NCBI GenBank assembly: GCA_013816255.1
Contig: JACDET010000011.1
Span: 1-41,875, forward strand
Source: Candidatus Levyibacteriota bacterium
GTDB lineage: Bacteria > Patescibacteriota > Microgenomatia > Levybacterales > UBA12049
Reading direction: 5' to 3'
DNA: 41,875 bases
Below, piece by piece: positions 4,392 to 33,990 of this stretch (position 1 is its first letter; the number at the start of each line of letters is the position of its first letter). The notes below the pieces were generated by a model that saw only the letters and a list, made by a program, of their open reading frames with translations, did no database searches and was not told where the DNA came from. The position numbers were made by a program, and so were the translations under genes.

Positions 4392-4426
4392 AAATTAAAT
4401 TTGAAGCACGAAATTTGAAATATGTT

Positions 4427-4504
4427 CAGAATACTCAGAGAACTCTGAAGATCGGAAAATCAGACTTTCTGAGATTCAGACTTTCAGATACGCTGAGTAT
4501 TCTG
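4427..4504. repeat. Long intercistronic inverted repeat between lemA and htpX
   Basis: CAGAATACTCAG (4427-4438) vs CTGAGTATTCTG (4493-4504), perfect 12 bp; nested TCAGAG-AA-CTCTGA; neighbouring CGAAATATTTCG (4512-4523). Confidence 0.7.
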
Positions 4505-4538
4505 AGTTTCCCGAAATATTTCGATATTCGGATTTGCA

Positions 4539-5090
4539 TTAAAATTCAACCTTGACCGGTTTTTTATCTGCTTCATCAGCGGCGAAAAATTCTGCTTCTT
4601 TGAAGTGGAACATGTTCGCGATAATTGAATTCGGGAAAAGCTGTATCTTTGTATTGTAATCAAGAACATTACTGTTCATAAATTGTCTTGAGTACGCTAC
4701 TTTATTTTCAGTATCAGAAAGTTCTTCCTGAAGACTTTGAAAATTTTGGCTTGCTTTCAAATCGGGATATGCTTCAGATACTGCAAAAAGTGATTTCAAC
4801 GTATCAGAGAGCATATTGTTTGCTGCAGCCTTTTCTTGTACTGAGCCAGCTTGCATCAGGTCGGCGCGTGCTCTCGTAACGTTTTCGAGAACTCCTTTTT
4901 CGTGTTTGGCGTACCCTTTTACTGTCTCAACCAAATTTGGAATAAGATCAGTTCGTCGTTTTAATTGCACATCGATCTGTGATAATGCTTCAGCAATTCG
5001 CATTCTTGCGGCAACAAGCGTATTGTACACAAACCATGCGTAGACAAGAAAAGCTACAATGACACCGATAATTATAATTGTTGCATTCAT
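4539..5090 (-). CDS. lemA: LemA family protein
   Basis: N-terminal [41 protein letters not shown]; strong SD GGGAGGTGATT 5 nt before ATG. Confidence 0.92.
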
Positions 5091-5149
5091 ATGTTAATCA
5101 CCTCCCTTCGCCCCGCGTAGCTTTAGCATAGTGGGGTTTAATTCCTTAA

Positions 5150-6919
5150 TCATTTTTCAAACCAATCTTTAAGTTCATTATAAGGTAATGCGTTGAGAAT
5201 GTCATTAGGCGTCGCCCAGCCACGTCTAGCGACACTGACACCATATTCCATAAGATCCATTTGATTTATGGCATGACTATCTGTGTCAATAAAAAGTTTG
5301 ATACCTTTTTTAATTGCTTCCCGCACAATGATGTCAGGCAAATCTAATCTTTGTGGTGCAGCATTAATCTCAAGCGCTTTATTATGTTTCAAGCAATAAT
5401 CAAAAATCTGATCCCAATGTAATTCATATGCTGGACGTTGGTTCAATAGTCTTCCAGTCGGATGCGCAAGTATCTTCGCCTTGGGATGAGAAAGACCTTT
5501 GAGCACGCGCTGCGTCATTGCATCACTATCCATATCAAAAGCACTGTGCACAGAGACGATTGATCCATCAAGTAACTGTAATGCATCGTCCTCAATAGCC
5601 AATGAACCGTTCGGAAGAATATCAGTTTCGAGTAAAGAAAATACCCGTATAGTATTTTTATACTTTACGTTTAATTTATCGATAAAATCTTTACGTTTGG
5701 AGAGAATATCAAAAACCTGTTTCTGCGTGTGTTTTGAGATACTTGGATTGTGTTCTGAAAATCCGAGGTATGTATACCCAAGCTCCAAAGCCCGTGCAAT
5801 CATCTCATCCATGGAATTCAGCCCCATGTCATGACTTGGTTCAATTGGATAGCTTGAGTGTAAATGAAAATCTCCTTTCATGTCTTTTATTTCAAGAAGC
5901 GTTGGTAAGGTATTTTTCAGAGCTAATTCTATCTCTCCAGTATTTTCGCGCATTTCTGGTGGCACCCACTGTAATCCGAGTACCGCATAAAATGATTCTT
6001 CAGTTTCATAGAGTGTATAAGGATCATCAGTGTCTCTCTTACGGATACCGTAATCTGACAGCGAGAGGCCTTTTGAGAGTGCATATTCACGTAAATGAAC
6101 ATTATGAGCTTTACTTCCGGTAAAGTGTTGCAGAAGAGCTCCAAAACCTTTTGGGGACTCAACCATAAGATCAATTTGTTTACCCGAAGAAACGATAATA
6201 GATGATGTACGTTCTCCGCGTTCAATGATGCGTTCTTTGTGCGGATATGCCGTAAAGTGATCGAGTACTGCTTTTGGATCATTTGTCGCTACGGCGATAT
6301 CGATATCTCCGACAGTTTCACGTCTTCTTCTCAAACTCCCAAGTGTTGATGCTCGTATAACGGCCGGGGATTCTTCAAGGTACGCAATCATTTTACGTGC
6401 AAGTTCCATTGCATAGGGAAGTACCATGCGAGCGGTTTTTGTTTTGCCTCGACCATATTCTTCAATCGCACGGAGAATATCTGCTTGGGATTTCTCGCCA
6501 AATCCAGGCAATGTTGCAATCTTTCCTTCTTTTGCAATTTTCACTACATCCGCAATCACCGTTGCTGGGTCCTGCAGATCAAACTCACTTACTAACCGGA
6601 AAGCCTTTTTGGGACCAAAGCTTGGCACATCCAAAAGAGGAAAGACACTTGCTGGAACACTACTCAGTACTTCTTCAAAATGTGCAACTTTGCCAGTACT
6701 TAATAGTTCTTCAAGACGTCCTTGGATCGTAGGACCGACTCCAGGAATGCCTGAAAGCTTGCCATCCTTATAAAGTTCCCGCAGTTCAGTCGGGGAATGC
6801 TCTATTGATTCTGCAGCTTTATCATACGCGATAATCTGAAAGCGGTATTTTTTCTCATCCTGAATACTATATGCTGAGGCTACATTTTTGAGGATTTTGC
6901 TAATCTCAAGGTTTGTCAT
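5150..6919 (-). CDS. polX: DNA polymerase/3'-5' exonuclease PolX (pol beta + PHP)
   Basis: HhH motifs, GSLRRRRETVGDIDIAV nucleotidyltransferase motif, GDFHLHSSY PHP motif. Confidence 0.92.
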   Translation of the reverse strand: MTNLEISKILKNVASAYSIQDEKKYRFQIIAYDKAAESIEHSPTELRELYKDGKLSGIPGVGPTIQGRLEELLSTGKVAHFEEVLSSVPASVFPLLDVPSFGPKKAFRLVSEFDLQDPATVIADVVKIAKEGKIATLPGFGEKSQADILRAIEEYGRGKTKTARMVLPYAMELARKMIAYLEESPAVIRASTLGSLRRRRETVGDIDIAVATNDPKAVLDHFTAYPHKERIIERGERTSSIIVSSGKQIDLMVESPKGFGALLQHFTGSKAHNVHLREYALSKGLSLSDYGIRKRDTDDPYTLYETEESFYAVLGLQWVPPEMRENTGEIELALKNTLPTLLEIKDMKGDFHLHSSYPIEPSHDMGLNSMDEMIARALELGYTYLGFSEHNPSISKHTQKQVFDILSKRKDFIDKLNVKYKNTIRVFSLLETDILPNGSLAIEDDALQLLDGSIVSVHSAFDMDSDAMTQRVLKGLSHPKAKILAHPTGRLLNQRPAYELHWDQIFDYCLKHNKALEINAAPQRLDLPDIIVREAIKKGIKLFIDTDSHAINQMDLMEYGVSVARRGWATPNDILNALPYNELKDWFEK

Positions 6920-6975
6920 ATGTTTGTACGCGCACTGGTTATGCGGTAACTTATTAAACTGAGTTTAGCAGAGGA

Positions 6976-7004
6976 TTGACGAGGGTGCAAGATTACGGTA
7001 AAAT
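6976..7004 (+). promoter_or_regulatory. sigma70-type promoter for tRNA-Asp
   Basis: TTGACG - 17 nt - TAAAAT. Confidence 0.65.
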
Positions 7005-7086
7005 ACAATCAACTTAGAATAGAAAATCAAGAACAAAAATAGTTCTTAGTTCAACGTTCTTCGTTCTCAGTTTGGCATAGCCAAAT

Positions 7087-7163
7087 GGGGTGATAGCTCA
7101 GTTGGTTAGAGCGCTTCCCTGTCACGGAAGAGGTCGCGGGTTCGAGTCCCGTTCATCCCGCCA
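7087..7163 (+). tRNA. tRNA-Asp (GTC), CCA encoded
   Basis: Acceptor GGGGTGA/TCATCCC, anticodon loop CTGTCAC, T-loop TTCGAGT, 3' GCCA. Confidence 0.95.
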
Positions 7164-7384
7164 CATTCATCTCGCGTGGCTCGTGAATGTGGCAGGCCAC
7201 GTTATTTTCACTCATCTTCATTTACTCTTCTCAAGTTACTATACAGATTGCAAGAATGAACTGTGGCCCGCCACGTTCAGCTCGCGTTGCTCATAAACGT
7301 GGCAGGCTACGTAATTTACCTCAAATATTATTATTCCCAAAGTTGCTAAATTAGTTGCGAGAATGAACTGTGGCCCGCTACAAT
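7157..7384. repeat. Imperfect tandem repeat starting in the tRNA-Asp 3' end (units 7157-7266, 7267-7373, partial 7374-7384)
   Basis: Each unit starts CCCGC(C/T)AC; units 1 and 2 end GAATGAACTGTGG; units share a terminal hairpin with one compensatory pair change. Confidence 0.8.
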
Positions 7385-7390
7385 AGAAGT

Positions 7391-7642
7391 ATGTATTATA
7401 TGTATATACTTAGGAGTTTGAAAAATAAGAAATTATACATAGGCCAATCGCCTGATATAAAAGCAAGAATAGCCTCTCATAATAATGGTGAAAACAAAGC
7501 TACAAAGCCAAACATCCCTTACGAGTTAATATTTTATTCAGGATTTAAAAGTGAAAAAGATGCAATAACTTGTGAGAAATACTTTAAAACTACTGCAGGA
7601 TGGAAAAGATTGCATAGAATGCTAGAAGACACGCTCAAGTAG
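7391..7642 (+). CDS. Stand-alone GIY-YIG nuclease-like protein (UPF0213-like)
   Basis: MYYMYILRSLKNKKLYIGQSPDIKARIASHNNG...CEKYFKT; ATG at 7391 preferred over the upstream alternative start because TACAAT lies at 7379-7384. Confidence 0.85.
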   Translation: MYYMYILRSLKNKKLYIGQSPDIKARIASHNNGENKATKPNIPYELIFYSGFKSEKDAITCEKYFKTTAGWKRLHRMLEDTLK

Positions 7643-7676
7643 CACTAGCAACTACTTACTACGAGACAATTTAATA

Positions 7677-7705
7677 TTGCAATATCACTAAAAGTGAGGT
7701 ATACT
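7677..7705 (+). promoter_or_regulatory. sigma70-type promoter for the LysM gene
   Basis: TTGCAA - 17 nt - TATACT; implies a start at 7757 rather than the ORF-track start at 7694. Confidence 0.6.
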
Positions 7706-7756
7706 CTCACGGATACCACTGTCACTAATAATTCCTGTCCCCAAATAAGAACAACT

Positions 7757-8593
7757 ATGGCTAAAAAGATAATTACAACAGAAGAAGTCCAAGCGGATGA
7801 ACCAGAGAGATCTGGAAATGGTTTTTTCGACTATCTGCGTTTTGGTGAATCATATACAAGTTTGATCCTCGGAATTGTCGTCGTTATTATTTCCACTGCA
7901 CTATTATTATCATTTTTTAATAACAGAGATGCCGTCCCTACAAATCCTGTCACACAGGAATCACAAAGTATTGCACAGATCTCACAACGGGCAATAGCAC
8001 TATCTGGTACACCTAAAGCAACAGGAACAGTGGACAGCCAAGCTGCGACAACAGGACCTGCTGCGACAAAGGCTCCAAACGTAACACCTACAGTAATGCC
8101 AACTGTCAAACCAACAGAAGCCGCGAAAGTAGCTCAAGCAACGACAGCTCCTGTAAAAGAGGAAACGAAAGTGACAACTCCGACAGCAGGTGAATATGTT
8201 GTAAAAGCTGGAGACACTCTTTGGACAATTGCTGAGAAACAATACAAAAGTGGGTATAACTGGGTTGATATCGCACGAGCAAATAATTTGTCCAATCCGG
8301 ATCAGATCAGTACAGGCAATAAACTGAAGCTTCCAAAAGTAACTGCAAAAGCGGCAACAGTTGTTGATACAAAGAAACAAGTAGCTAAAAACGATCAACA
8401 AAAAACAACAGTCGAGCCTAGTAAGATTACAGTTGATACGTATAAAGTTGTTAAAGGAGATTCACTTTGGACTGTTGCAGTCCGTGCCTATGGTGATGGA
8501 TACAAATGGGTAGATATCGCCAAAGCAAATAAATTAACAAATCCAAACGTCATTCACGTAAATAATCAACTAAAACTCCCACGCGGTAAATAA
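7757..8593 (+). CDS. Membrane-anchored protein with two LysM domains
   Basis: One TM (SLILGIVVVIISTALLLSFF), T/A/P-rich linker, two copies of YxVxxGDxLWTxAxxxYxxGYxWVDIAxANxLxNPxxI. Confidence 0.9.
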   Translation: MAKKIITTEEVQADEPERSGNGFFDYLRFGESYTSLILGIVVVIISTALLLSFFNNRDAVPTNPVTQESQSIAQISQRAIALSGTPKATGTVDSQAATTGPAATKAPNVTPTVMPTVKPTEAAKVAQATTAPVKEETKVTTPTAGEYVVKAGDTLWTIAEKQYKSGYNWVDIARANNLSNPDQISTGNKLKLPKVTAKAATVVDTKKQVAKNDQQKTTVEPSKITVDTYKVVKGDSLWTVAVRAYGDGYKWVDIAKANKLTNPNVIHVNNQLKLPRGK

Positions 8594-8649
8594 TCAGTAA
8601 ATTCCATCTAGCCAAAAGTTTTCGTATTTATTTTGTAATATATTTTAAT

Positions 8650-21990: not shown

Positions 21991-22380
21991 ATGCCATTAT
22001 CTGCGTCAGACAAAATAAAATATAAAGAGCTCTATCTCCAAACCGCGAAGCCGTATGTAGACGATTTACAAAAGATAGCTTCACTCCAAGACGGAGATGT
22101 TGAAACGGTTGATGTCATTCACCGTGCAGCGCACTCAATGGGAAGTCAAAGCCAAATGATGGAATACAATTCTATTGCCAATCTCTCACGACTTATAGAA
22201 AAGATCTTCAAGGCTAAAAAGGATGAAGGATATATCTTGACGCAAGAAACAAAAGCTCTCATGATAGGCGATGTGTCAAGAATGCAGGATTCACTTGCAT
22301 CGATTGCAAATAACGATAGTGAATTGGATCTTACACCAGAAATAGAAGCATTACGTACAAGTAGTAAAATTATTGTATAA
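21991..22380 (+). CDS. Hpt (histidine phosphotransfer) domain protein
   Basis: VIHRAAHSMGSQSQMMEYNSIANLSRLIEKIF resembles the Hpt motif; small helical protein beside a CheY-like protein. Confidence 0.75.
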   Translation: MPLSASDKIKYKELYLQTAKPYVDDLQKIASLQDGDVETVDVIHRAAHSMGSQSQMMEYNSIANLSRLIEKIFKAKKDEGYILTQETKALMIGDVSRMQDSLASIANNDSELDLTPEIEALRTSSKIIV

Positions 22381-22457
22381 TATACCTATCGTTATAAACG
22401 ACGAGGCATACTATGCTATTAGTAAAATGATTTAAAAGGAGTATATAATAAACAAAC

Positions 22458-22823
22458 ATGAAGGTACTGCTCATTGAAGACGATACATTTTTTCGAGGCT
22501 TTTATGCAACAAAGCTCAAGGAAAAAGGAATGGAAATAGAAACCGCTGCTGATGGTGAAGAAGGTCTTTTGAAGATTACTGCATTTAACCCCGATCTCGT
22601 ACTCTTAGATATTATTATGCCAAAAAAAGATGGTTTTGAAGTTTTAGCTTCTATGAAGGAGTCAGGACTTACTGTAACGATTCCGGTTCTCGTTTTCTCG
22701 ACATTAGGACAAGAGAAGGACGTGGAAAAAGCCCGACAACTTGGCGCCCGTGGGTATGTCAATAAAAGCTTTTTTGATTTTGACAAACTCTATGCCCGAA
22801 TCATGGAACTCGGTACGAAGTAA
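22458..22823 (+). CDS. CheY-like response regulator
   Basis: LLIEDD, LVLLDIIMPKKDGFE, VNKSF. Confidence 0.93.
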   Translation: MKVLLIEDDTFFRGFYATKLKEKGMEIETAADGEEGLLKITAFNPDLVLLDIIMPKKDGFEVLASMKESGLTVTIPVLVFSTLGQEKDVEKARQLGARGYVNKSFFDFDKLYARIMELGTK

Positions 22824-22870: not shown

Positions 22871-24556
22871 ATGCTTATTACAGACGATCAATTAAAGACA
22901 CTCCTGCTTAGTGTAAAAGTGCTTGATGAAAAAAAGCTTGAGGAAGTAATCGATTACGCCAAAAATTCAGACATCCCACTGAGTGATGCTTTAATTGAAA
23001 AGGATGTTATTACCGATGAAAATCTGGGAGTACTTATCTCCGATGCATTTAAAATTCCTTTTGTTGTTCTCGGTAAAATCTCAATTCCACAAGAAGCCTT
23101 CCGTATTATTCCTGAGCGTTTGGCACGTAAGTATCAAGCTATTCCATTTGCACGGGATAGTGAAGGAATTAAAGTTGCAATGGTCGATCCGAAGAATACA
23201 TTAATTGCGGAAATGATTGCCAAAAAGACCGGCCAAAAGGTTCAAGCATATTTAGCTACAGAGCGTGATGTCTATAACAAACTTTGGCTCTATCGGCGGG
23301 ATCTGCAAAAAACCTTTGACACACTTGTTTCAGAACAGATCCGGAGTGCTGGCAAAACGACCTCAATTGAAGTGCCAATTGCCAAGATTGTCGAACTTAT
23401 TATTCAATACGCATATCAAGATCGTGCATCTGATATTCATATTGAACCTGAAGAGAAAGACTCATTGGTACGCTTCCGCGTGGACGGTATTTTGCATGAT
23501 GTCCTGTTCCTTCCCAAGAAGCTTCACGATCAGATCACAACTCGTATCAAAGTGCTCGCGAGTCTACGGACTGATGAACATATGGCACCGCAAGATGGAA
23601 AATTGCGTGTGGCACTGGAAGAGGAGAACTTGGATATCCGTGTTTCCATCCTGCCTGTTATTTACGGCGAAAAGATTGTCATGCGGTTACTCGCTTCACA
23701 TTTCAGACAATTTTCACTTGCTGATTTAGGTATGACTGAAAGTGATCTGCAAAAAGTGACCAATGCTTTTAAAAAATCATTTGGACTTATCCTCTCAACT
23801 GGTCCGACAGGTTCGGGTAAATCGACCTCTATTTATTCAGTACTGAAAATTATTAATTCCAGAGAAAAGAATATTACAACCATTGAAGATCCTGTCGAAT
23901 ATCGCCTGAAAGGTATCAACCAAATTCAAACTAACGCCAAAACCAATTTGACGTTTGCTAGTGGTTTACGCTCAATCTTACGTCAAGATCCAAACGTCAT
24001 TCTTGTCGGAGAAATCCGGGATTCAGAAACAGCTGGTATTGCGGTAAACGCCGCATTAACCGGGCATTTGGTTCTTTCAACGCTTCACACCAATGATGCG
24101 GCCGGTGCGTTGCCGCGTCTGACTGATATGAATGTCGAACCATTTTTGGTCGCGTCCACTGTCAATATCATCATTGCTCAGCGTTTGATCCGTAAGATTT
24201 GTGAGATGTGTAAGACCTCAGAAGATGTAACGAGTGAGCAGTTGATACTTAATTTACCAGCCGAAGCTATCAAAAAGCATTTCGGCACCAAAAAAGATGT
24301 CAGAATTTATAAAGGAAAAGGTTGCGAAGTTTGTCATTTGACAGGATATTCAGGTCGGCTTGGTATTTTTGAAGTGCTTGAAGTCAATGCGGAAATCAAA
24401 CGGCTTATTATCGAACAGAAAGACTCAACAATCATTTTGGAAAAAGCAGTAGAATCAGGTATGAATACGATGCTAGATGATGGATTGAGTAAGGTAGCAA
24501 AAGGCATGACTACCATTCAAGAAGTGCTTCGTGTAACCAAAGTAGAAGCACTCTAA
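22871..24556 (+). CDS. pilB: Type IV pilus assembly ATPase PilB/GspE
   Basis: GPTGSGKST Walker A, RSILRQDPNVILVGEIRD, STLHTNDAAGALPRL, tetracysteine CEMC/CEVC. Confidence 0.97.
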   Translation: MLITDDQLKTLLLSVKVLDEKKLEEVIDYAKNSDIPLSDALIEKDVITDENLGVLISDAFKIPFVVLGKISIPQEAFRIIPERLARKYQAIPFARDSEGIKVAMVDPKNTLIAEMIAKKTGQKVQAYLATERDVYNKLWLYRRDLQKTFDTLVSEQIRSAGKTTSIEVPIAKIVELIIQYAYQDRASDIHIEPEEKDSLVRFRVDGILHDVLFLPKKLHDQITTRIKVLASLRTDEHMAPQDGKLRVALEEENLDIRVSILPVIYGEKIVMRLLASHFRQFSLADLGMTESDLQKVTNAFKKSFGLILSTGPTGSGKSTSIYSVLKIINSREKNITTIEDPVEYRLKGINQIQTNAKTNLTFASGLRSILRQDPNVILVGEIRDSETAGIAVNAALTGHLVLSTLHTNDAAGALPRLTDMNVEPFLVASTVNIIIAQRLIRKICEMCKTSEDVTSEQLILNLPAEAIKKHFGTKKDVRIYKGKGCEVCHLTGYSGRLGIFEVLEVNAEIKRLIIEQKDSTIILEKAVESGMNTMLDDGLSKVAKGMTTIQEVLRVTKVEAL

Positions 24557-24560
24557 TCAC

Positions 24561-25613
24561 ATGAAGACCTACAATACAACGCTTTCAGCAAACGATAAAA
24601 TTGCATTAGTCAGTAATTTGCACACAATGCTTGTTTCAGGTATTCCGATTCTTGAGACAGTTGAGTCACTTCTCGAAGACGCAAAAGGCAACCAACTGAA
24701 GCTCCTTCAAGCAATGCGAGACGATCTTGGCCAAGGACAGCACATGTACGTGACCTTTCAAAAGTTTCCGAAGATGTTTGATAAAGTAACGGTCAATATT
24801 CTGAAAGCATCTGAAGAATCCGGGACACTTGATACTGCACTCGAAGATTTGAAGTTAAGCATCCGCAAAGAAATTGAATTTAATGACAAGATCCGCTCAG
24901 CACTCCTCTATCCAGCATTTATTATGGTTGTGTTTGTCATGGTAATGGTGGTCATTCTGGTTGTGGTTGTTCCAAAGATCTCAACTGTCTTTACCAACCT
25001 TAATGTCGTTCTCCCATTGCCGACAGTCATCATGATTTTTCTTTCCAATGCACTTCTTACCTATACTATTCCTATCATTTTGGTTGTCGCTGCAATTATT
25101 GGTGGAGTAATATTTCTTTTCAAACGCAACAGAATGATTATCATCAGAGCGCTCACGTCGTTGCCACTTATCAGTCTTCTCACGCAGCAAATAGATTTGA
25201 CGCGTTTTACAAGAAGTCTTTATTTACTTCTGACAGCAGGTATTCCTATTACAACTGCATTGGAATTGACGCAAGATGTAGTGATCAAAAAGAATATTCA
25301 AAATGCAATTAAGCACACCAAGAATGTCGTTTTTGATGGAAAGAAATTGTCAGAAGGTTTAAAAGACAGTAAGAAAGTTATTCCTCCAATTATGATCAAA
25401 ATCATTGAAGCTGGAGAACGAAGTGGTTCACTGGATAAAGCGATGCTTGACGTTTCAGATTTTCTTGATTATGAAGTTTCAAGTACTTTAAAAACTGTGA
25501 CTGCTTTGATCGAGCCGATTATGCTTGTGGGAGTTGGTGTTCTTATCGGCGGAATGATGATGGCGATTATTGCTCCTATTTATCAGCTTATCGGTTCTGT
25601 AGGAGTAAAGTAA
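24561..25613 (+). CDS. pilC: Type IV pilus inner-membrane platform protein PilC/GspF
   Basis: GIPILETVE...ASEESGTLD, second repeat GIPITTALE...IIEAGERSGSLDKAM, TM helices. Confidence 0.95.
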   Translation: MKTYNTTLSANDKIALVSNLHTMLVSGIPILETVESLLEDAKGNQLKLLQAMRDDLGQGQHMYVTFQKFPKMFDKVTVNILKASEESGTLDTALEDLKLSIRKEIEFNDKIRSALLYPAFIMVVFVMVMVVILVVVVPKISTVFTNLNVVLPLPTVIMIFLSNALLTYTIPIILVVAAIIGGVIFLFKRNRMIIIRALTSLPLISLLTQQIDLTRFTRSLYLLLTAGIPITTALELTQDVVIKKNIQNAIKHTKNVVFDGKKLSEGLKDSKKVIPPIMIKIIEAGERSGSLDKAMLDVSDFLDYEVSSTLKTVTALIEPIMLVGVGVLIGGMMMAIIAPIYQLIGSVGVK

Positions 25614-25647: not shown

Positions 25648-26166
25648 ATGAATAGATTAATAAAATATTTCTCAACTCTCAACTCTCAACTTTCATCTCA
25701 AAAGGGTTTTACTCTCATTGAATTAATTATTGTCATGGGGATTTTTGCAACGCTGACAGGCTTGTCGACGATCAGTTTGATGAATGTACAACATAAATCG
25801 TCATTAACTGCGACGGTTAATACGCTTACTGCTGATTTACGATCGCAACAGCTCAAGGCAATGGTAGGAGACACAGAGGGGAGAGCTGCTGTCGATACGT
25901 ATGGTATAAATTTAGCCACAAATACCTATACGCTTTTTCATGGTACATTTTCATCAATGGAATCTACCAATTTTGCTGTGAACGTACCATCTACAATCCA
26001 AGTTACGACCACTTTGCCGAACTCGCAAATAATCTTTCTTAAAGGGAGTGGAGAGGTAAGTGGTTTTGTAAATGGCTCCAATACTATCACGCTTAGAGAT
26101 ACCGTCAATGGAAGTCAGTCTACAATTACCGTGAATAGATTGGGCGTGATCACAGGAGTTAATTAA
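25648..26166 (+). CDS. FimT/GspH-like minor prepilin
   Basis: QKG^FTLIELIIVMGIFATLTGLSTISLM class III signal. Confidence 0.88.
   Translation: MNRLIKYFSTLNSQLSSQKGFTLIELIIVMGIFATLTGLSTISLMNVQHKSSLTATVNTLTADLRSQQLKAMVGDTEGRAAVDTYGINLATNTYTLFHGTFSSMESTNFAVNVPSTIQVTTTLPNSQIIFLKGSGEVSGFVNGSNTITLRDTVNGSQSTITVNRLGVITGVN
25671..25691 (+). repeat. 3 x 7-bp CTCAACT repeat in the prepilin leader
   Basis: CTCAACTCTCAACTCTCAACT read directly; complementary GAAGTTGAGAG lies upstream at 25618-25628. Confidence 0.85.
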
Positions 26167-28169
26167 TGAAAAACTTTATGAAGATACAGCAAAAAGGGCA
26201 ATTATTACTTGAATTAATGCTGACGATCGGTCTTGCTGCCATTTTGATTCCTGCACTGCTTACAGGACTCGTGGCCTCTCGTGAAGGAAAAGTCCAACAA
26301 GAGAACCGAATGCAAGCAGTATCCTTACTCAAGGAAGCTGAAGAAGCTGTACGTTTTATCAAAGAGAATAATTGGAATGCCATCGCTGATGTAACCGTTG
26401 GAAGCGCATATCATCCAGTCGTTTCAGGTAGCACCTGGGCGCTTACCTCAGGTACTGAGACAATAAATGGGTTTACCCGTGCAGTAACAGTAAGTAATGT
26501 AAGTCGTGATAGTGCTGGCAAAATTGTATCTTCAGGTGGGACGATAGATCCTTCGACAAAAGCAATTGATATTACGATATCATGGAATATCCCCAATATC
26601 TCTACCGTAAATTCAAAATTTCTCCTAACTCGTGTAGGCAATATGACGTACACGGATACGACAACAACACAATTTAACGCTGGAACAACAACAACATCGA
26701 CTGTCCTGGCGACAACAGGAAGTGGCATAGCAAATGATGGGCAAGTACAATTAGGTGCTGGAGGCGGATCACAATCTGATTGGTGTGCGCCATCTCTTAC
26801 AATTACTCCGCATGATCTGCCCAAAAGTGGTGTCGCTAATGCGATCACCGCCATTGAAGGGAGAGCATTTGCTGGTACTGGTGATAATGCTTCAGGAGTA
26901 TCGTTTGCGAATTTGAGTATAACAACGGCAAGACCACCTATAACGACAACTTTGGGGACATTTGATGGATTCAAAACGAATGCTGTTTTTGGAGACGCAA
27001 ATTATGGATATCTTGGAACAGACAATAACAGTAAGGAAGTTGTCATTGTCAACTTTGCAACAAATCCATATTCTGAAGTAGGGTACTTTAATATTTCTGG
27101 TTCTAGTAATGGTGAGAGTGTTTTTGTGCTTGGGAATATCGGTTACGTTATTAATGGGAACACGCTCCACACATTTAATCTTTCTAGCAAATCGGGTTCG
27201 CGGGCACAATTAGGAAGCATTACATTGGATGGGACTGCGACAAAAATCTATGCCGTTGGTAATTACGCATATGTTGCAATCAACGGAACAGCAAATCAAC
27301 TAGAGATAATTGAGGTAAGTAATGGCGGTGCAACCCTTACCAAAAGAAGTTCACTAACAGTAGCGGGGCAAGGTGGAAAAGATATCTTTGTAAATCCGTC
27401 AGGAACACGTGCATATCTTGCAACAGGCACTTCAACGACACAACGTGAATTATTCATCATTAACACGACAACAAAAACGAGTCCATCATTGGTCAGCAGT
27501 TATGAGGCAAATGGTCTCAGTCCAAAAGGAGTTACTGTTGTAACCAATAATAAAGCAATTCTTGTAGGTACTGGAGGTGAAGAATATCAGGTTATCAATA
27601 TTGTGAATGAAACTGCACCGACTCGCTGTGGAGGGCTAAATATTGATTCAGGTGTGAATGGTGTCTCCTCAGTTTTAGAAGCAGACGGAGATGTTTATTC
27701 ATATATCATTACAGGCGATGCAAGTTCAGAGTTCAAAATTATAGAAGGAGGAGCCGGAGCAGCATTCTCAAGTACTGGTACTTTTGAGTCAGCAACGTTT
27801 GATCCTTATACTGTAGATGGAGGAATAAACACGAGATCGTTTAACAGATTCGTGGCGACTGTCGCAAATCCTAATCAAACATTTCTAAAAATGCAGGTAG
27901 GGGTTGCAGGTGTAAATGTGAGTAATAATTGCACAGGTGTTAGCTTCCGTTATGTAGGGCCTTTGGGTAGCTCAGCACTTGATGGGTCTGGAAAACCTAT
28001 CGATTATTTCAGCCCTGTTGGGAGTACTATTACTGGCTTAATACCGCTGATTACTTCTGGTAGTTATCAAAATCCGGGGAGATGTTTTCGATACAAATTA
28101 TGGTTTGATACAAGCGATTCAACACAAACGCCCATATTTTATAACGTAATAGTGAACTATTCAGGATGA
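26166..28169 (+). CDS. PilV-like prepilin with a large LVIVD/beta-propeller-like domain
   Basis: QKG^QLLLELMLTIGLAAILIPALLTGL N-terminus with PilV-like helix; repeats such as EVVIVNFATNPYSEVGYFNISGSSNGESVFVLGNIGYVINGNTLHTFNL and KDIFVNPSGTRAYLATG. Confidence 0.8.
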   Translation: MKNFMKIQQKGQLLLELMLTIGLAAILIPALLTGLVASREGKVQQENRMQAVSLLKEAEEAVRFIKENNWNAIADVTVGSAYHPVVSGSTWALTSGTETINGFTRAVTVSNVSRDSAGKIVSSGGTIDPSTKAIDITISWNIPNISTVNSKFLLTRVGNMTYTDTTTTQFNAGTTTTSTVLATTGSGIANDGQVQLGAGGGSQSDWCAPSLTITPHDLPKSGVANAITAIEGRAFAGTGDNASGVSFANLSITTARPPITTTLGTFDGFKTNAVFGDANYGYLGTDNNSKEVVIVNFATNPYSEVGYFNISGSSNGESVFVLGNIGYVINGNTLHTFNLSSKSGSRAQLGSITLDGTATKIYAVGNYAYVAINGTANQLEIIEVSNGGATLTKRSSLTVAGQGGKDIFVNPSGTRAYLATGTSTTQRELFIINTTTKTSPSLVSSYEANGLSPKGVTVVTNNKAILVGTGGEEYQVINIVNETAPTRCGGLNIDSGVNGVSSVLEADGDVYSYIITGDASSEFKIIEGGAGAAFSSTGTFESATFDPYTVDGGINTRSFNRFVATVANPNQTFLKMQVGVAGVNVSNNCTGVSFRYVGPLGSSALDGSGKPIDYFSPVGSTITGLIPLITSGSYQNPGRCFRYKLWFDTSDSTQTPIFYNVIVNYSG

Positions 28170-28669
28170 TTATAAATAAAGTTACACAAGAAAAAGGTTT
28201 TACCCTCATAGAAATGATCATATATATTGGTATATTTTCTCTCCTTATTGGGGTGCTCAGTGCAATCTTTGGCGCAATTCTCGATGTACAATTAGAATCT
28301 GAAGGTACATCAAAAGTTGATCAGAATGGTAGATATATACTTGCTAAATTGAATCATGATATTGAAGACGCGACGGCAATCACTACACCATCGAGCCCGG
28401 GACAAACAACTTCTACTTTGCAAATTACAGTAAATTCTATAATATATACATATGGCCTTGATGGGAGCGGTAATTTGCAGCTTACCACACCAACTGGAAC
28501 AAATAATCTAAATAGTCAAGGTATAACTGTATCTGGTTTGTCTTTTACAAGATTGGGAAATGGTGGTGCCAATGATACTATACGGGTAAATTATACAATA
28601 ACAAGTACTATTCAGTCGCCATCAGGCCCAGAATCACGAACGTTCCAAACCACGCTTGGATCGTTATAG
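28166..28669 (+). CDS. PilW/GspJ-like minor prepilin
   Basis: EKG^FTLIEMIIYIGIFSLLIGVLSAIFG; ATGA overlap with upstream gene. Confidence 0.85.
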   Translation: MIINKVTQEKGFTLIEMIIYIGIFSLLIGVLSAIFGAILDVQLESEGTSKVDQNGRYILAKLNHDIEDATAITTPSSPGQTTSTLQITVNSIIYTYGLDGSGNLQLTTPTGTNNLNSQGITVSGLSFTRLGNGGANDTIRVNYTITSTIQSPSGPESRTFQTTLGSL

Positions 28670-28671
28670 CA

Positions 28672-29094
28672 ATGAATACGAATAGAGCACATGTGTTTAA
28701 TAAGAAGATAGTTAATTTGTTTGATCAAAAAGGACAAGCACTCATAACGTTGCTGTTTTTTATGATTATTGGTATTACTATCACCTCGGCAGCGGTGGTG
28801 ATGATATTGGTAAATTCGTTAAGTGGGGCAAAGTTACAGCAAGGTGAGATAGCATATCATATCGCCAAAAGTGGTGCTGAAAATGGAGTACTACGTTTGT
28901 TGCGAAATCCTTCCTATACAGGTGAGGACGACTTAGGGATAGGAGGAGGGCTTGTTGATATTACCGTTTCAGGAAGTGGACCATATACAATTACATCAAC
29001 AGGAACAACTGGTAATTTCACAAGAAAAGTCGAAACGACAGTTACCTATGTAAATAATCTTTTAACGGTAACTTCACAAAAGGAGATATATTGA
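28672..29094 (+). CDS. PilX/GspK-like minor pilin
   Basis: QKG^QALITLLFFMIIGITITSAAVVMI (no Glu+5), AYHIAKSGAENGVLRLLRNP. Confidence 0.75.
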   Translation: MNTNRAHVFNKKIVNLFDQKGQALITLLFFMIIGITITSAAVVMILVNSLSGAKLQQGEIAYHIAKSGAENGVLRLLRNPSYTGEDDLGIGGGLVDITVSGSGPYTITSTGTTGNFTRKVETTVTYVNNLLTVTSQKEIY

Positions 29095-29095
29095 A

Positions 29096-30259
29096 ATGAC
29101 AACAAAAACAGGGATCATCTATTTACAAAAAGATAAATTTCAATTCATGTCGCCATTCTTGGCTTCTATTGTTGAGTTCCGTTTTACGCAAGAAATGGTA
29201 CAAGATCTTGATGTGTTAAGTAGTGATCTGCTTGAAGAGCAAATAAAACTCTTTGTTGCCAATGGAAAGATCCCTCCGAGTAATGTAATTATTGTTCTTT
29301 GCGACAACGCGTATTTCATCAAAGACATCTTGCTTCCAAACCAACCACCACCTATTCCACCAAAACCTGGTCAACCAAATACTCCTGTCGCCAAAGTTTC
29401 TCTCGATGATCTCAAGCCGCAGATTGATCTTTTTGTCGAGCATGTACCATATGAAAATGTTGTCAGTAAAACGTTTCCTTTAAAAAACGGTGTACGAGTA
29501 TGTGCTGTGAATCAGGATTTTTACGGTACTATCCAATCTGCTTTTGAAAAAGCTGGCTTTATAGTCGCATCTGTTTTTCCGGGAATGGTACTTGGAAACG
29601 GATTGAGTGCGCGGCCTGTTATGGATGGGGCAATGGCCAATTTGATATTGCAAAAGGCTCCTTCATTTAAACAATATGATTTGATATCACAAGTTGCTTT
29701 TAGTGCGATCAAAGAAGAGGTTGAATCAGTTGATGAAGTGCAAGACGCAAAAAATAAAAATCAGGAACCACCTAAAACAAATAAAACAAGGATGATTGCT
29801 ATGGTTGGTGTTTTGGTTGTTCTGCTTGTAATATTAGTTGTCGTCTTTATGCAAAGTCAACAGCCGCCACCGCCACCTCCGCCTGTTCAACCAGCGTTTG
29901 CCCCAAGTCAACCAATTACTCTTTCACAAGTACCTTCAGTTCCACTAGAGACGCCAACTTCTACTACTATTAACCCAGCACAGATCCAGAATGTAAGTGT
30001 CCAGATCATTAATGCTTCATCATCTGCTACTGTCACTAGGAATTTGCAAAGTGAATTAAACAAATATAAGTTTAAAAGCGTAGCAGTTCAAACGCAAAGT
30101 AATACGGGAGCTGCCAATACCGTTGTTTATTTTTCAGCAAACACGAATCAGGCAGTAAGAAATATAGTTCTTGAAGAAGTAAGAAAACTTGTTTCTGATA
30201 TAACAGTCCAAGAAAGACAAAGCGATGCAAATAACGTCACCATTATTTTAGGAAAATGA
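29096..30259 (+). CDS. T4P-locus membrane protein: N-terminal cytoplasmic domain + TM + Pro-rich linker + LytR_C-like domain
   Basis: TM MIAMVGVLVVLLVILVVVFM; QQPPPPPPPVQP; VSVQIINASSSATVTRNLQSELNKYKFKSVAVQ. Confidence 0.65.
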   Translation: MTTKTGIIYLQKDKFQFMSPFLASIVEFRFTQEMVQDLDVLSSDLLEEQIKLFVANGKIPPSNVIIVLCDNAYFIKDILLPNQPPPIPPKPGQPNTPVAKVSLDDLKPQIDLFVEHVPYENVVSKTFPLKNGVRVCAVNQDFYGTIQSAFEKAGFIVASVFPGMVLGNGLSARPVMDGAMANLILQKAPSFKQYDLISQVAFSAIKEEVESVDEVQDAKNKNQEPPKTNKTRMIAMVGVLVVLLVILVVVFMQSQQPPPPPPPVQPAFAPSQPITLSQVPSVPLETPTSTTINPAQIQNVSVQIINASSSATVTRNLQSELNKYKFKSVAVQTQSNTGAANTVVYFSANTNQAVRNIVLEEVRKLVSDITVQERQSDANNVTIILGK

Positions 30260-30360: not shown

Positions 30361-30843
30361 ATGACAGTTCGAGAAGTATACAACGAAAAGAATAAAGGAT
30401 TCACCCTCATCGAGTTACTGGTCGTTATCGGTATTCTCGCAATTCTCCTTGCAATCACACTGATTGCTATCAACCCAGCAAGACAGTTCGGACAAGCAAA
30501 TGATACAAAGAGAAGAAGCGATATTACACAGGTATTAAATGCAGTAGGTCAATACACAGCATCTAATGGTGGTATTTTACCAACTGAGATTACAGCTTTG
30601 ACTGCAGGCGCAGCTGCTACAGCTGTTAATAACACAAACTTCCCTAACCTTTGTGGACAATTGGTGCCTAATTATGTTCCAGCACTTCCAATGGATCCAA
30701 GTTTGCCAAATAGCCAAGCAGGTATTTCTACTTGTACTGGTACGTGGGGAGATACAGGCTATTCAATAGCGAGAGACGCAAACAATAGAATAACAGTCAC
30801 TGCACCAAGTGCATATTCAGGTCCGATTCAAGTTACAAGATAA
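30361..30843 (+). CDS. Type IV major pilin-like protein
   Basis: NKG^FTLIELLVVIGILAILLAITLIAINPARQFGQANDTKRRSDI. Confidence 0.92.
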   Translation: MTVREVYNEKNKGFTLIELLVVIGILAILLAITLIAINPARQFGQANDTKRRSDITQVLNAVGQYTASNGGILPTEITALTAGAAATAVNNTNFPNLCGQLVPNYVPALPMDPSLPNSQAGISTCTGTWGDTGYSIARDANNRITVTAPSAYSGPIQVTR

Positions 30844-30989: not shown

Positions 30990-32300
30990 ATGAGAATAAA
31001 TAGTACTTTTAAAGCAACTTCTTATAAAATATTTGTTGTATTTATTATCTGCCTAATATATTTCTTTTTTACAGATACGACAATACTTGCTGCTTCGGGA
31101 TGGGTTAATAAAGGAGACTTAAATGTACAGAGATATTTGCATACTGCAACAGTATTAAGTGATGGAAAAGTTTTAGTTGTTTGTGGGGGAAGAAATGGTA
31201 CTCCTATCCGTCAATCTGAGATTTTTGATCCAACTACTGGGAATTGGACAAATTCTAATAATACACTATTAAGCCGAAGATATCATACAGCAGATTTAGT
31301 AAGAGTAAGTGAAATTACAGAAGAAACAAATGTTCTTATAGCTGGAGGAATCGGAGGTACTGAAATAACTAATACTGCTGAGCTCTATAATCCATTATCA
31401 AATACCTGGAAATATGCTTCTAATATGAAAAACGCACGTTTGTTTCACGCTTCATCTAGTCTTAATGACGGTAGAATTTTAGTTACTGCTGGTGCAGCGA
31501 CTGGAGGGTTTATCAAAGAAAAACATAGTTCTACAGAAATTTATGATCCAATTTCAAATACGTGGACTCTCAAGGCACCATTAGGCACTGCGCGAGCCTA
31601 TCATGAACAAGTAACGTTTAAAGACGCACAAGGCAACACTAAAGTAATGGTTATTGGAGGCATAGATACAAATGGTAATAGTGAAGCAAATGCACTAGCT
31701 ACTACTGAAATTTATGATAGCTACACTAATACATGGTCATATGGTCCAAATATGAATTTTAAACGTTATGACTTTTTAGCAATAACATTACCTGACGGAA
31801 GAGTATTGGTAGTAGGGGGTAATATAAATAATGATGTTACTTCAGAAGTTTATAATCCAAACGATAATTCTTGGACTGTCTATTCTGCAAGTAAAGCTTT
31901 TAGGTACGGTGGTGCAATTGCGTTGGTGGGAAGCGGATCAAGCAGTAATGTGTTAGCTTCTGGTGGGAACACACCTGACGCTACTGCACAGTTGTTTAAC
32001 CCCTCCACTAATACATGGGGTATAACAGATTCAATGAGTAAACCTCGTAGTAGGTTTATGTTGACTACCTTAAAGAATGGATCAGCTCTTGCAATAGCTG
32101 GGGCGTCAGAAAATACTTTAACAAATACAAGTGAAGTTTATACACCTGATCAGATAATTGTTCCTACTCCTACCCTAGTTCCAATCCCAAGTGTGTCTCC
32201 CACTCCAGAACCTTTTTTAGATTTGCCTTGGGATTATAGGAGTCAGGGGAGTAGTTTTGAACAGGTTGCATTAAATCCAGAATCTTGGTTTGATACATAA
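30990..32300 (+). CDS. Secreted kelch-repeat protein, 5' part of a probable kelch-M23 protein
   Basis: N-terminal hydrophobic signal, kelch repeats (TEIYDPISNTWTLKAPLGTARAYHE...), ends PWDYRSQGSSFEQVALNPESWFDT*. Confidence 0.85.
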   Translation: MRINSTFKATSYKIFVVFIICLIYFFFTDTTILAASGWVNKGDLNVQRYLHTATVLSDGKVLVVCGGRNGTPIRQSEIFDPTTGNWTNSNNTLLSRRYHTADLVRVSEITEETNVLIAGGIGGTEITNTAELYNPLSNTWKYASNMKNARLFHASSSLNDGRILVTAGAATGGFIKEKHSSTEIYDPISNTWTLKAPLGTARAYHEQVTFKDAQGNTKVMVIGGIDTNGNSEANALATTEIYDSYTNTWSYGPNMNFKRYDFLAITLPDGRVLVVGGNINNDVTSEVYNPNDNSWTVYSASKAFRYGGAIALVGSGSSSNVLASGGNTPDATAQLFNPSTNTWGITDSMSKPRSRFMLTTLKNGSALAIAGASENTLTNTSEVYTPDQIIVPTPTLVPIPSVSPTPEPFLDLPWDYRSQGSSFEQVALNPESWFDT

Positions 32301-33990
32301 GTATCCGTTACAAAATATAGCTTGTTGTACATTTAAAGTTTTGACTTATGTCGGTGGTGAAGACAAAACGGATGCCTACCGTTCCCATAGTGGATACGAT
32401 TATGCAAGAAGAAATGGGATACGATTCCACACGCCTGTCCTAGCTGCAGCTACAGGATCAGCTATATTTATTCATAAAGCAAATAGTAAAGGTGCGGGAA
32501 ATATTATTAAAATCGATCATAAAAACGGCTATCAAACGTGGTATGAGCACTTAGATGATAATGATTTAATTGTTAAAACTGAAGGGACAGAAGTTTTGGT
32601 TCAAAAAGGTCAGCAAGTTGGTAAGGTTGGTATGACAGGAAATACAAATGGTCCACATATACATTTCTCAGTCTTTAAAGATGGTAATAATAATGGTACG
32701 TTTACTGATGATTACCCATATGGCTTAGTTGATCCACTTGGATGGGATGGAGATTATACTGACCCTTGGACAGAGTATGCAAATGGAAATACTCATGGCG
32801 CAACGAGCTATAACCTTTTTACAGCTCGATTAAAGCCTGTAATACAATCTGTTCCTACGTCAGGAGCTACATTATATATGGATAAAGTACAAGTTGATGT
32901 TCCTGGAGGAGCTTCTCCAGTATTTGTTACAATCTCATCTAAGTATGGCCCATTTGAATCAAGTCAGGGTAATCTAGAAAGTATAATGCCATCAATATTT
33001 CTAACTGCACTAGATAATCTTAATAACAAAATTACGCAGTTTTTCCAAAAGATAAAGATATCGTATGATTACTCGGATGCTGAATTATATGGTATTGAAG
33101 AAGATTCAATTAGATTGAACCATTACAATGAAAAATCCAAAGCTTGGGAGCCACTTCCTACCACACTTGATAAAACGAATAAAATAGCAGTTGCCTATAC
33201 TTCGCATTTTTCACAGTTTGCGCTTATGGGAGAAATAACGGATAAAATTTCCCCTACAACAGAGGTGGTAATAGATGGTGATAAAGGCGAACAAGGTTGG
33301 TACAAATCATCCTTGTCAGTTACATTGCTTGGGAAAGATAATGAAGGAGGAGTTGGGGTAAGTGAAACATTATATACCACTAATGGTGAAGACTGGCTTG
33401 AATATACTAAAGCTTTAAATTTTGAAGAAGAAGGAGAATATGTAATAACATATAAATCTATTGATAATCTTTACAATGTAGAGAATCAAAAAACTGTCAC
33501 ATTTCATATTGATAAAACAGTACCTGAGGCTATCATAAAGTATGATTTAGGTAGACAGGAAATAGTTATAGTTGGAAAAGATGCTAGCTTGGCTTTCTTT
33601 ACGGAAAAAAATACTGGAAAGAATAAGCAAGAAATAATAATTTCGGATAAAGCTGGCAATACTGCCAATTTCTCAGTAAAGGATAAAGAAAAAGGGAAAA
33701 ATGCCAGAATAACAATTGATTCGATGCAATATAACGATAATTCCCCTATATATCTGGGTGATAATAAGTTTTCTGTGCAGTATGTTGTATCAGCATCTGC
33801 AGTGAAAGCATTTAACCAAACCTGGCAAGTGGGAGAAGAGGTAAAAGTTAAGACTAAGTATTCTTCTGATAATAATATAACAGAGATAAGTACGCTGGAT
33901 TCTAATGGAATTATACAAAAAGAAGATATGCCAGGTATGAAACTCTTGCTTCTTCAAACTGAAAATGGTACAGTAAACTATAGCTATTAG
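32290..33990 (+). CDS. M23 metallopeptidase + Ig/OmpL47-like region, probable continuation of the preceding ORF
   Basis: SHSGYDYA, GYQTWYEHLDD, GPHIHFSVF motifs; begins HKYPLQN in a different frame; TTG start unconvincing. Confidence 0.8.
   Translation: MIHKYPLQNIACCTFKVLTYVGGEDKTDAYRSHSGYDYARRNGIRFHTPVLAAATGSAIFIHKANSKGAGNIIKIDHKNGYQTWYEHLDDNDLIVKTEGTEVLVQKGQQVGKVGMTGNTNGPHIHFSVFKDGNNNGTFTDDYPYGLVDPLGWDGDYTDPWTEYANGNTHGATSYNLFTARLKPVIQSVPTSGATLYMDKVQVDVPGGASPVFVTISSKYGPFESSQGNLESIMPSIFLTALDNLNNKITQFFQKIKISYDYSDAELYGIEEDSIRLNHYNEKSKAWEPLPTTLDKTNKIAVAYTSHFSQFALMGEITDKISPTTEVVIDGDKGEQGWYKSSLSVTLLGKDNEGGVGVSETLYTTNGEDWLEYTKALNFEEEGEYVITYKSIDNLYNVENQKTVTFHIDKTVPEAIIKYDLGRQEIVIVGKDASLAFFTEKNTGKNKQEIIISDKAGNTANFSVKDKEKGKNARITIDSMQYNDNSPIYLGDNKFSVQYVVSASAVKAFNQTWQVGEEVKVKTKYSSDNNITEISTLDSNGIIQKEDMPGMKLLLLQTENGTVNYSY

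Follow-up and report, generated by a model that had tools for sequence, protein, structure and literature searches.

The open reading frame at 26166-28169 (+) of the window, a stretch of 41,875 nucleotides from a Candidatus Levyibacteriota bacterium, encodes a protein of 667 aa in which a prepilin is followed in one polypeptide by a predicted seven-bladed beta-propeller of the LVIVD type and a predicted C-terminal beta-sandwich. The fusion of prepilin and propeller inside a minor-pilin operon, as proposed in the initial annotation, was thus recovered in the predicted structure. The best explanation, and one that we consider fairly probable, is a modular minor pilin whose propeller would act as a ligand-binding, exchangeable head at the pilus tip.

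The N-terminus of the protein reads MKNFMKIQQKG^QLLLE, with Gly at -1, Glu at +5 and a hydrophobic helix thereafter. The leader peptide (residues 1-11, 26166-26198 (+)) was predicted to be cut after Gly11, and Glu16 is then the +5 residue. Gly-1 was invariant in 15 of 15 aligned proteins, and the +5 acid was Glu, with Asp in one of them, so the class III prepilin N-terminus noticed at the outset (Gly, four residues, Glu/Asp, hydrophobic helix) was present in the whole aligned set. The Pfam model N_methyl matched 9 of these 15 members weakly, the window protein not among them. In the AlphaFold model, the pilin stem and pilin head (residues 12-175, 26199-26690 (+)) appeared as a helix at residues 7-68 and a pilin-like sheet to about residue 162 (strands 81-162), followed by a linker mostly of low confidence (residues 176-221, 26691-26828 (+)) that holds the invariant Cys207. 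The protein therefore has the class III signal and hydrophobic alpha1 helix of a modular type IV pilin and, in the same chain, an extra domain that is not specific to pilus biology. The label PilV-like agreed with the operon position between the FimT-like and PilW-like genes, but not with the model searches: no NCBIfam model matched the window protein, so that a PilV/GspI match above cut-off was absent, and some same-slot relatives gave weak PilV, GspI or ComGE matches, all below cut-off.

The propeller occupies residues 222-541 (26829-27788 (+)). AlphaFold placed 28 strands in residues 226-541, grouped as seven blades of four strands each. The model of the whole protein (residues 1-667) had a mean pLDDT of 79 and a pTM of 0.55, and at this overall pTM the arrangement of the domains is uncertain. 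Foldseek against the PDB gave WD40 propellers as the best matches, with a target-normalised TM-score of up to 0.77, while a PDB sequence search with the window protein returned a weak match to 6-phosphogluconolactonase alone (E 0.33). In the Pfam scan, PF08309 (LVIVD) was the only match of the window protein, at 23.8 bits against a curated cut-off of 20.2 and with one stretch above the cut-off; LVIVD matched 15 of 15 members at E<=0.1. Profile-profile comparison linked blades 2-7 to each other, mostly via blade 4 as a hub and with up to 96% probability, in comparison with at most 21% for control blocks, and blade 1 was not recognisable by sequence. Both a repeat above cut-off and several four-stranded blades closing a propeller were thus found, and the recurring blades first seen by eye were borne out by the LVIVD match, the profile links and the model. 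The propeller length of about 450 aa given initially had to be corrected to about 320 aa; the last 125 aa or so form a separate domain.

This C-terminal domain (residues 542-667, 27789-28166 (+)), which had been missed, appeared in AlphaFold as a beta-sandwich; modelled alone, it reached a pLDDT of 91 and a pTM of 0.83. Foldseek with this domain gave nothing significant (best match Kex2, E 0.011), and we therefore name it only a beta-sandwich. It contains Cys589 and Cys640, which together with Cys207 of the linker and Cys488 of the propeller were invariant in 15 of 15 aligned proteins. The same domain, in part as repeats, was also seen in other prepilins and in very large open reading frames of 1000-4000 aa (e.g. 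L085), and is apparently a generic patescibacterial surface domain.

The gene order was as first described: FimT-like, PilV-like, PilW-like, PilX-like, membrane protein, pilin. Directly upstream of the minor-pilin genes lie genes for a PilB-type extension ATPase (22871-24556 (+); PF00437, 8.3e-129; syntenic in relatives) and a PilC-type platform protein (24561-25613 (+)), the latter assigned by its conserved position after pilB and ahead of the minor-pilin genes. The FimT/GspH-like prepilin (25648-26166 (+)) was recognised by N_methyl, by ComGD/GspH models below cut-off and by synteny. The modular prepilin is followed by a PilW/GspJ-like prepilin (28166-28669 (+)), named mainly by position, and a PilX-like prepilin (28672-29094 (+)), assigned by operon position and without a library match. 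A membrane protein with a C-terminal LytR_C domain (29096-30259 (+); 28.3 bits; conserved in the operon) and a major-pilin-like prepilin (30361-30843 (+); IV_pilin_GFxxxE, GspG-like) complete the series. The N-terminal part of the membrane protein may be PilM/GspL-like, which would make it a possible alignment-complex subunit. One prepilin peptidase and further secretion-type ATPases were found in the same genome.

Several other features were observed near these genes or elsewhere in the genome. Two proteins named by eye, one small and Hpt-like, the other a CheY-like response regulator, are encoded before pilB at 21991-22823 (+); such pairs also precede pilB in several relatives (L011, L013, L014), and signalling control of the pilus by this pair is possible. 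Directly downstream of the pil operon is a Kelch-propeller protein with a signal-like N-terminus (30990-32300 (+); Kelch_1, 7.8e-33), which seems to continue, after a change of frame, as an M23 peptidase protein (32290-33990 (+)). The two frames are probably one Kelch-M23 protein broken by a frameshift or assembly error, and they lie outside the operon conserved in relatives. On contig C59 of the same genome (L076, about 4400-8600), a second prepilin cluster stands beside the only prepilin peptidase found. It encodes a short PilV-like pilin of 157 aa without an extra module, for which the best NCBIfam match was PilV, below cut-off.

One scan of GTDB species yielded 15 relatives in Levy-, Gottesman-, Roizman-, Ames- and Woesebacteria and two further Patescibacteria. 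One of them (L013) is spread over two frames and was excluded from the alignment; the other 14 were full-length homologues with 46-56% identity to the window protein, and the context search showed the same fusion in the same operon of these related CPR genomes. Of the genomes of the class, 374 were sampled and searched with the profile; 306 matched at all, many through the pilin part only, and 80 matched at E<=2.4e-149, counted among the matches listed. In the fetched loci with the slot, the order pilB-pilC-fimT-like-slot-pilW-like-pilX-like-membrane protein-pilin was conserved within the limits of the contigs; among the few exceptions is L065, where the slot comes after the PilX-like gene. 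Since 14 full-length homologues and the class-wide matches stand in one conserved operon, the propeller pilin is not a chance fusion.

The propeller was the most conserved part of the aligned set, with a mean pairwise identity of 54% in comparison with 42-48% for the other parts, and it was also the best conserved domain in many individual pairs; its ligand may therefore be common and conserved. In most lineages, such conservation speaks against rapid host-specific evolution. Between some close relatives, however, the propeller was the most divergent part. A tandem duplicate of the propeller pilin was also observed in L073 (6750-10666 (-)), with near-identical N-terminal stems and propellers that are roughly 40-55% identical.

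Across the class and beyond it, the propeller was usually retained in this slot and only sometimes exchanged for another head, as would suit a swappable device for gripping at the pilus tip. We then read the slot proteins for which profile matches covered only parts. The pilin stem was kept in these proteins, and several also kept the C-terminal domain around another middle. This middle was a canonical LVIVD propeller in L067-L069, L087 and L093 (Pfam 69-127 bits where scanned), a propeller with large insertions in L064-L066, and a DUF4082/Lectin_like module in L062; DUF4082 was just below cut-off in L089, and the middle of L063 was similar to this type as judged by eye. In L056-L061 the middle consisted of beta-rich-looking modules without an assigned family. 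Other slot proteins were without the C-terminal domain and carried an LVIVD propeller only (L125, L126), an 'SWS'-rich module (L072, L074, L075, L122, L123; L124 is truncated at the contig end) or a short Cys-rich tail (L117-L121). The last group is only 199-246 aa long, and its conserved tail, often ending in TCCC, stands in place of a large head.

Replacement within a lineage was clearest in families f8 (L107, L062) and f30 (L069, L061). In L107, with the propeller, and L062, with DUF4082, both of f8, the stems were 46-68% identical and the C-terminal ends about 50%, in contrast to 11-37% for the part between. L012 and L110, a close pair, share 76-96% identity in the other operon parts but 55% in the propeller. 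Identity at third codon positions was about 0.32-0.47 inside the module, in comparison with 0.63-0.72 in much of the flanks, although low values also occurred outside it, in one block of the stem (0.45) and in a part of the C-terminal domain (0.34). As the divergence of the module extends to third codon positions, the pattern points to recombination rather than solely to selection on amino acids.

Module labels were assigned by hand to a PilC tree, with inserted-propeller versions counted with the window type. The labels needed 13 changes, where the minimum is 7 and the mean of shuffled labels was 26. The window-type propeller was mainly in one clade within the class and was thus mainly passed on vertically, which likewise speaks against rapid evolution of host specificity in most lineages; it turned up again at a great distance, in family f64 of the phylum. 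A second PilC lineage held the SWS-like, Cys-rich-tail and bare LVIVD versions, all of which are without the C-terminal domain, so that part of the diversity lies between paralogous pilus systems; genome G349 holds both kinds (L034 and L072). General rapid swapping of heads across the class was rejected in view of the 13 changes against 26 for shuffled labels, the mostly single propeller clade and the second PilC lineage.

The protein is of a kind already known. A catalogue of modular pilins lists 264 architectures, CPR proteins included, and among them a Falkowbacteria pilin of 860 aa with 12 IPR013211 motifs (PMC8179133); IPR013211 is LVIVD (PMC10210494). In Streptococcus sanguinis, a pilin with a bulky module modelled as fitting only at the tip binds ligands (PMC8179133, PMC9934059), and the window protein resembles S. 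sanguinis PilB and PilC in having a functional module on an N-terminal pilin and a predicted place at the filament tip. In contrast to the catalogued modular pilins, it has one seven-bladed propeller plus a C-terminal domain, belongs to a class-wide core operon and has a middle that is replaced between relatives. Another likeness is to PilX2 of Nanosynbacter lyticus TM7x (Saccharibacteria), a minor pilin, likewise patescibacterial, for which a seven-bladed propeller of the RCC1 type is predicted and deletion of which roughly halves host binding (PMC12206443). However, PilX2 has no predicted PilD signal and its pilin locus is apart from the assembly machinery, whereas the window protein has a class III signal, the PilV slot of a pilB-pilC operon, an extra C-terminal sandwich and an LVIVD-type propeller, LVIVD rather than RCC1 being its only Pfam match. 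With LVIVD-repeat surface proteins (PF08309) it shares the repeat family and the predicted propeller fold, but it is divergent, with a single stretch above cut-off. Such surface proteins are usually without a pilin fusion. In the literature searched, a class-wide conserved operon slot, a two-domain head and a framed replacement of the middle module were not found, and a search pairing LVIVD with pilin gave no match. The new element is the constancy of the stem, and often of the C-terminal domain, in a single operon slot whose middle module varies.

How the propeller came to the pilin, and what it does there, can be read in several ways. The initial annotation held that the PilY1 propeller had been moved onto the minor pilin. 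Both propellers are attached to the minor-pilin complex, and the proposed mechanism is like that of the proteobacterial PilY1/PilC tip adhesin, in which a propeller is presented by this complex. A search for PilY1 in the same genome (80% complete) and in 287 Patescibacteria found none, the control genomes being silent too, and PilY1 is likely absent from this genome. However, PilY1 is a separate non-pilin protein with a propeller of another family (PF05567), whereas here the propeller is fused to a prepilin, is LVIVD-like and gave no PF05567 match in the Pfam scan, and the propellers of other same-slot pilins are closer to the canonical LVIVD repeat. It is therefore simpler to assume that a generic surface propeller was acquired independently, and transfer of the PilY1 propeller itself is highly improbable.

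The propeller might instead stabilise or cap the initiation complex, like PilY1 in Proteobacteria, without itself being the ligand-binding part. Its strong conservation, its place in the core pilB-pilC operon and the failure to detect PilY1 (in searches with silent controls) fit such a priming role, and a xanthus study (PMC7541494) counted in favour of it. We nevertheless consider it unlikely: elsewhere the slot holds middle modules of entirely different kinds, or no more than a short Cys-rich tail, so a specific propeller is not needed for assembly, and the module is the part that diverges most between some close relatives. Less probable still is a head for DNA uptake or substrate capture, whose propeller would bind DNA or a polymer rather than a partner cell and so serve competence or scavenging. 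For another modular minor pilin, ComZ, a role of the head in capturing DNA has been discussed (PMC8179133). The strong conservation of the propeller would follow from a conserved ligand, and the lectin-like and DUF4082 replacements would suit polymer binding too, but the Pfam scan gave no DNA- or polymer-binding signature. The exchange of modules between relatives and the host-binding role of PilX2 in Saccharibacteria make the tip adhesin the best reading, and by analogy a tip-displayed binding head is the most likely role of the LVIVD module. We know of no established ligand of LVIVD propellers.

For this tip-adhesin reading, we infer processing, tip location and ligand binding as follows. 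The prepilin peptidase would cleave the N-terminal prepilin part, and, together with the FimT-, PilW- and PilX-like pilins, the processed subunit would form the complex that initiates the main type IV pilus and sits at its tip. The propeller and beta-sandwich would then be shown beyond the filament, where the head could bind a partner cell, a glycan, a surface or another ligand. In this reading the head is an exchangeable cassette, since other lineages have on the same stem, and often with the same C-terminal domain, a different middle module. A broader version, in which a framed cassette in the PilV slot exists throughout the Patescibacteria, its middle head being replaced by recombination and deciding which partner or substrate is gripped, is a tentative and rather doubtful extension.

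The source bacterium is tiny and probably partner-dependent, and the finding bears on the means by which uncultivated members of the CPR recognise a partner or a surface. The head domain is defined and recurs in an operon slot that is fixed and easily found; it can be expressed and tested for binding, and the module swaps between close relatives are natural comparisons.
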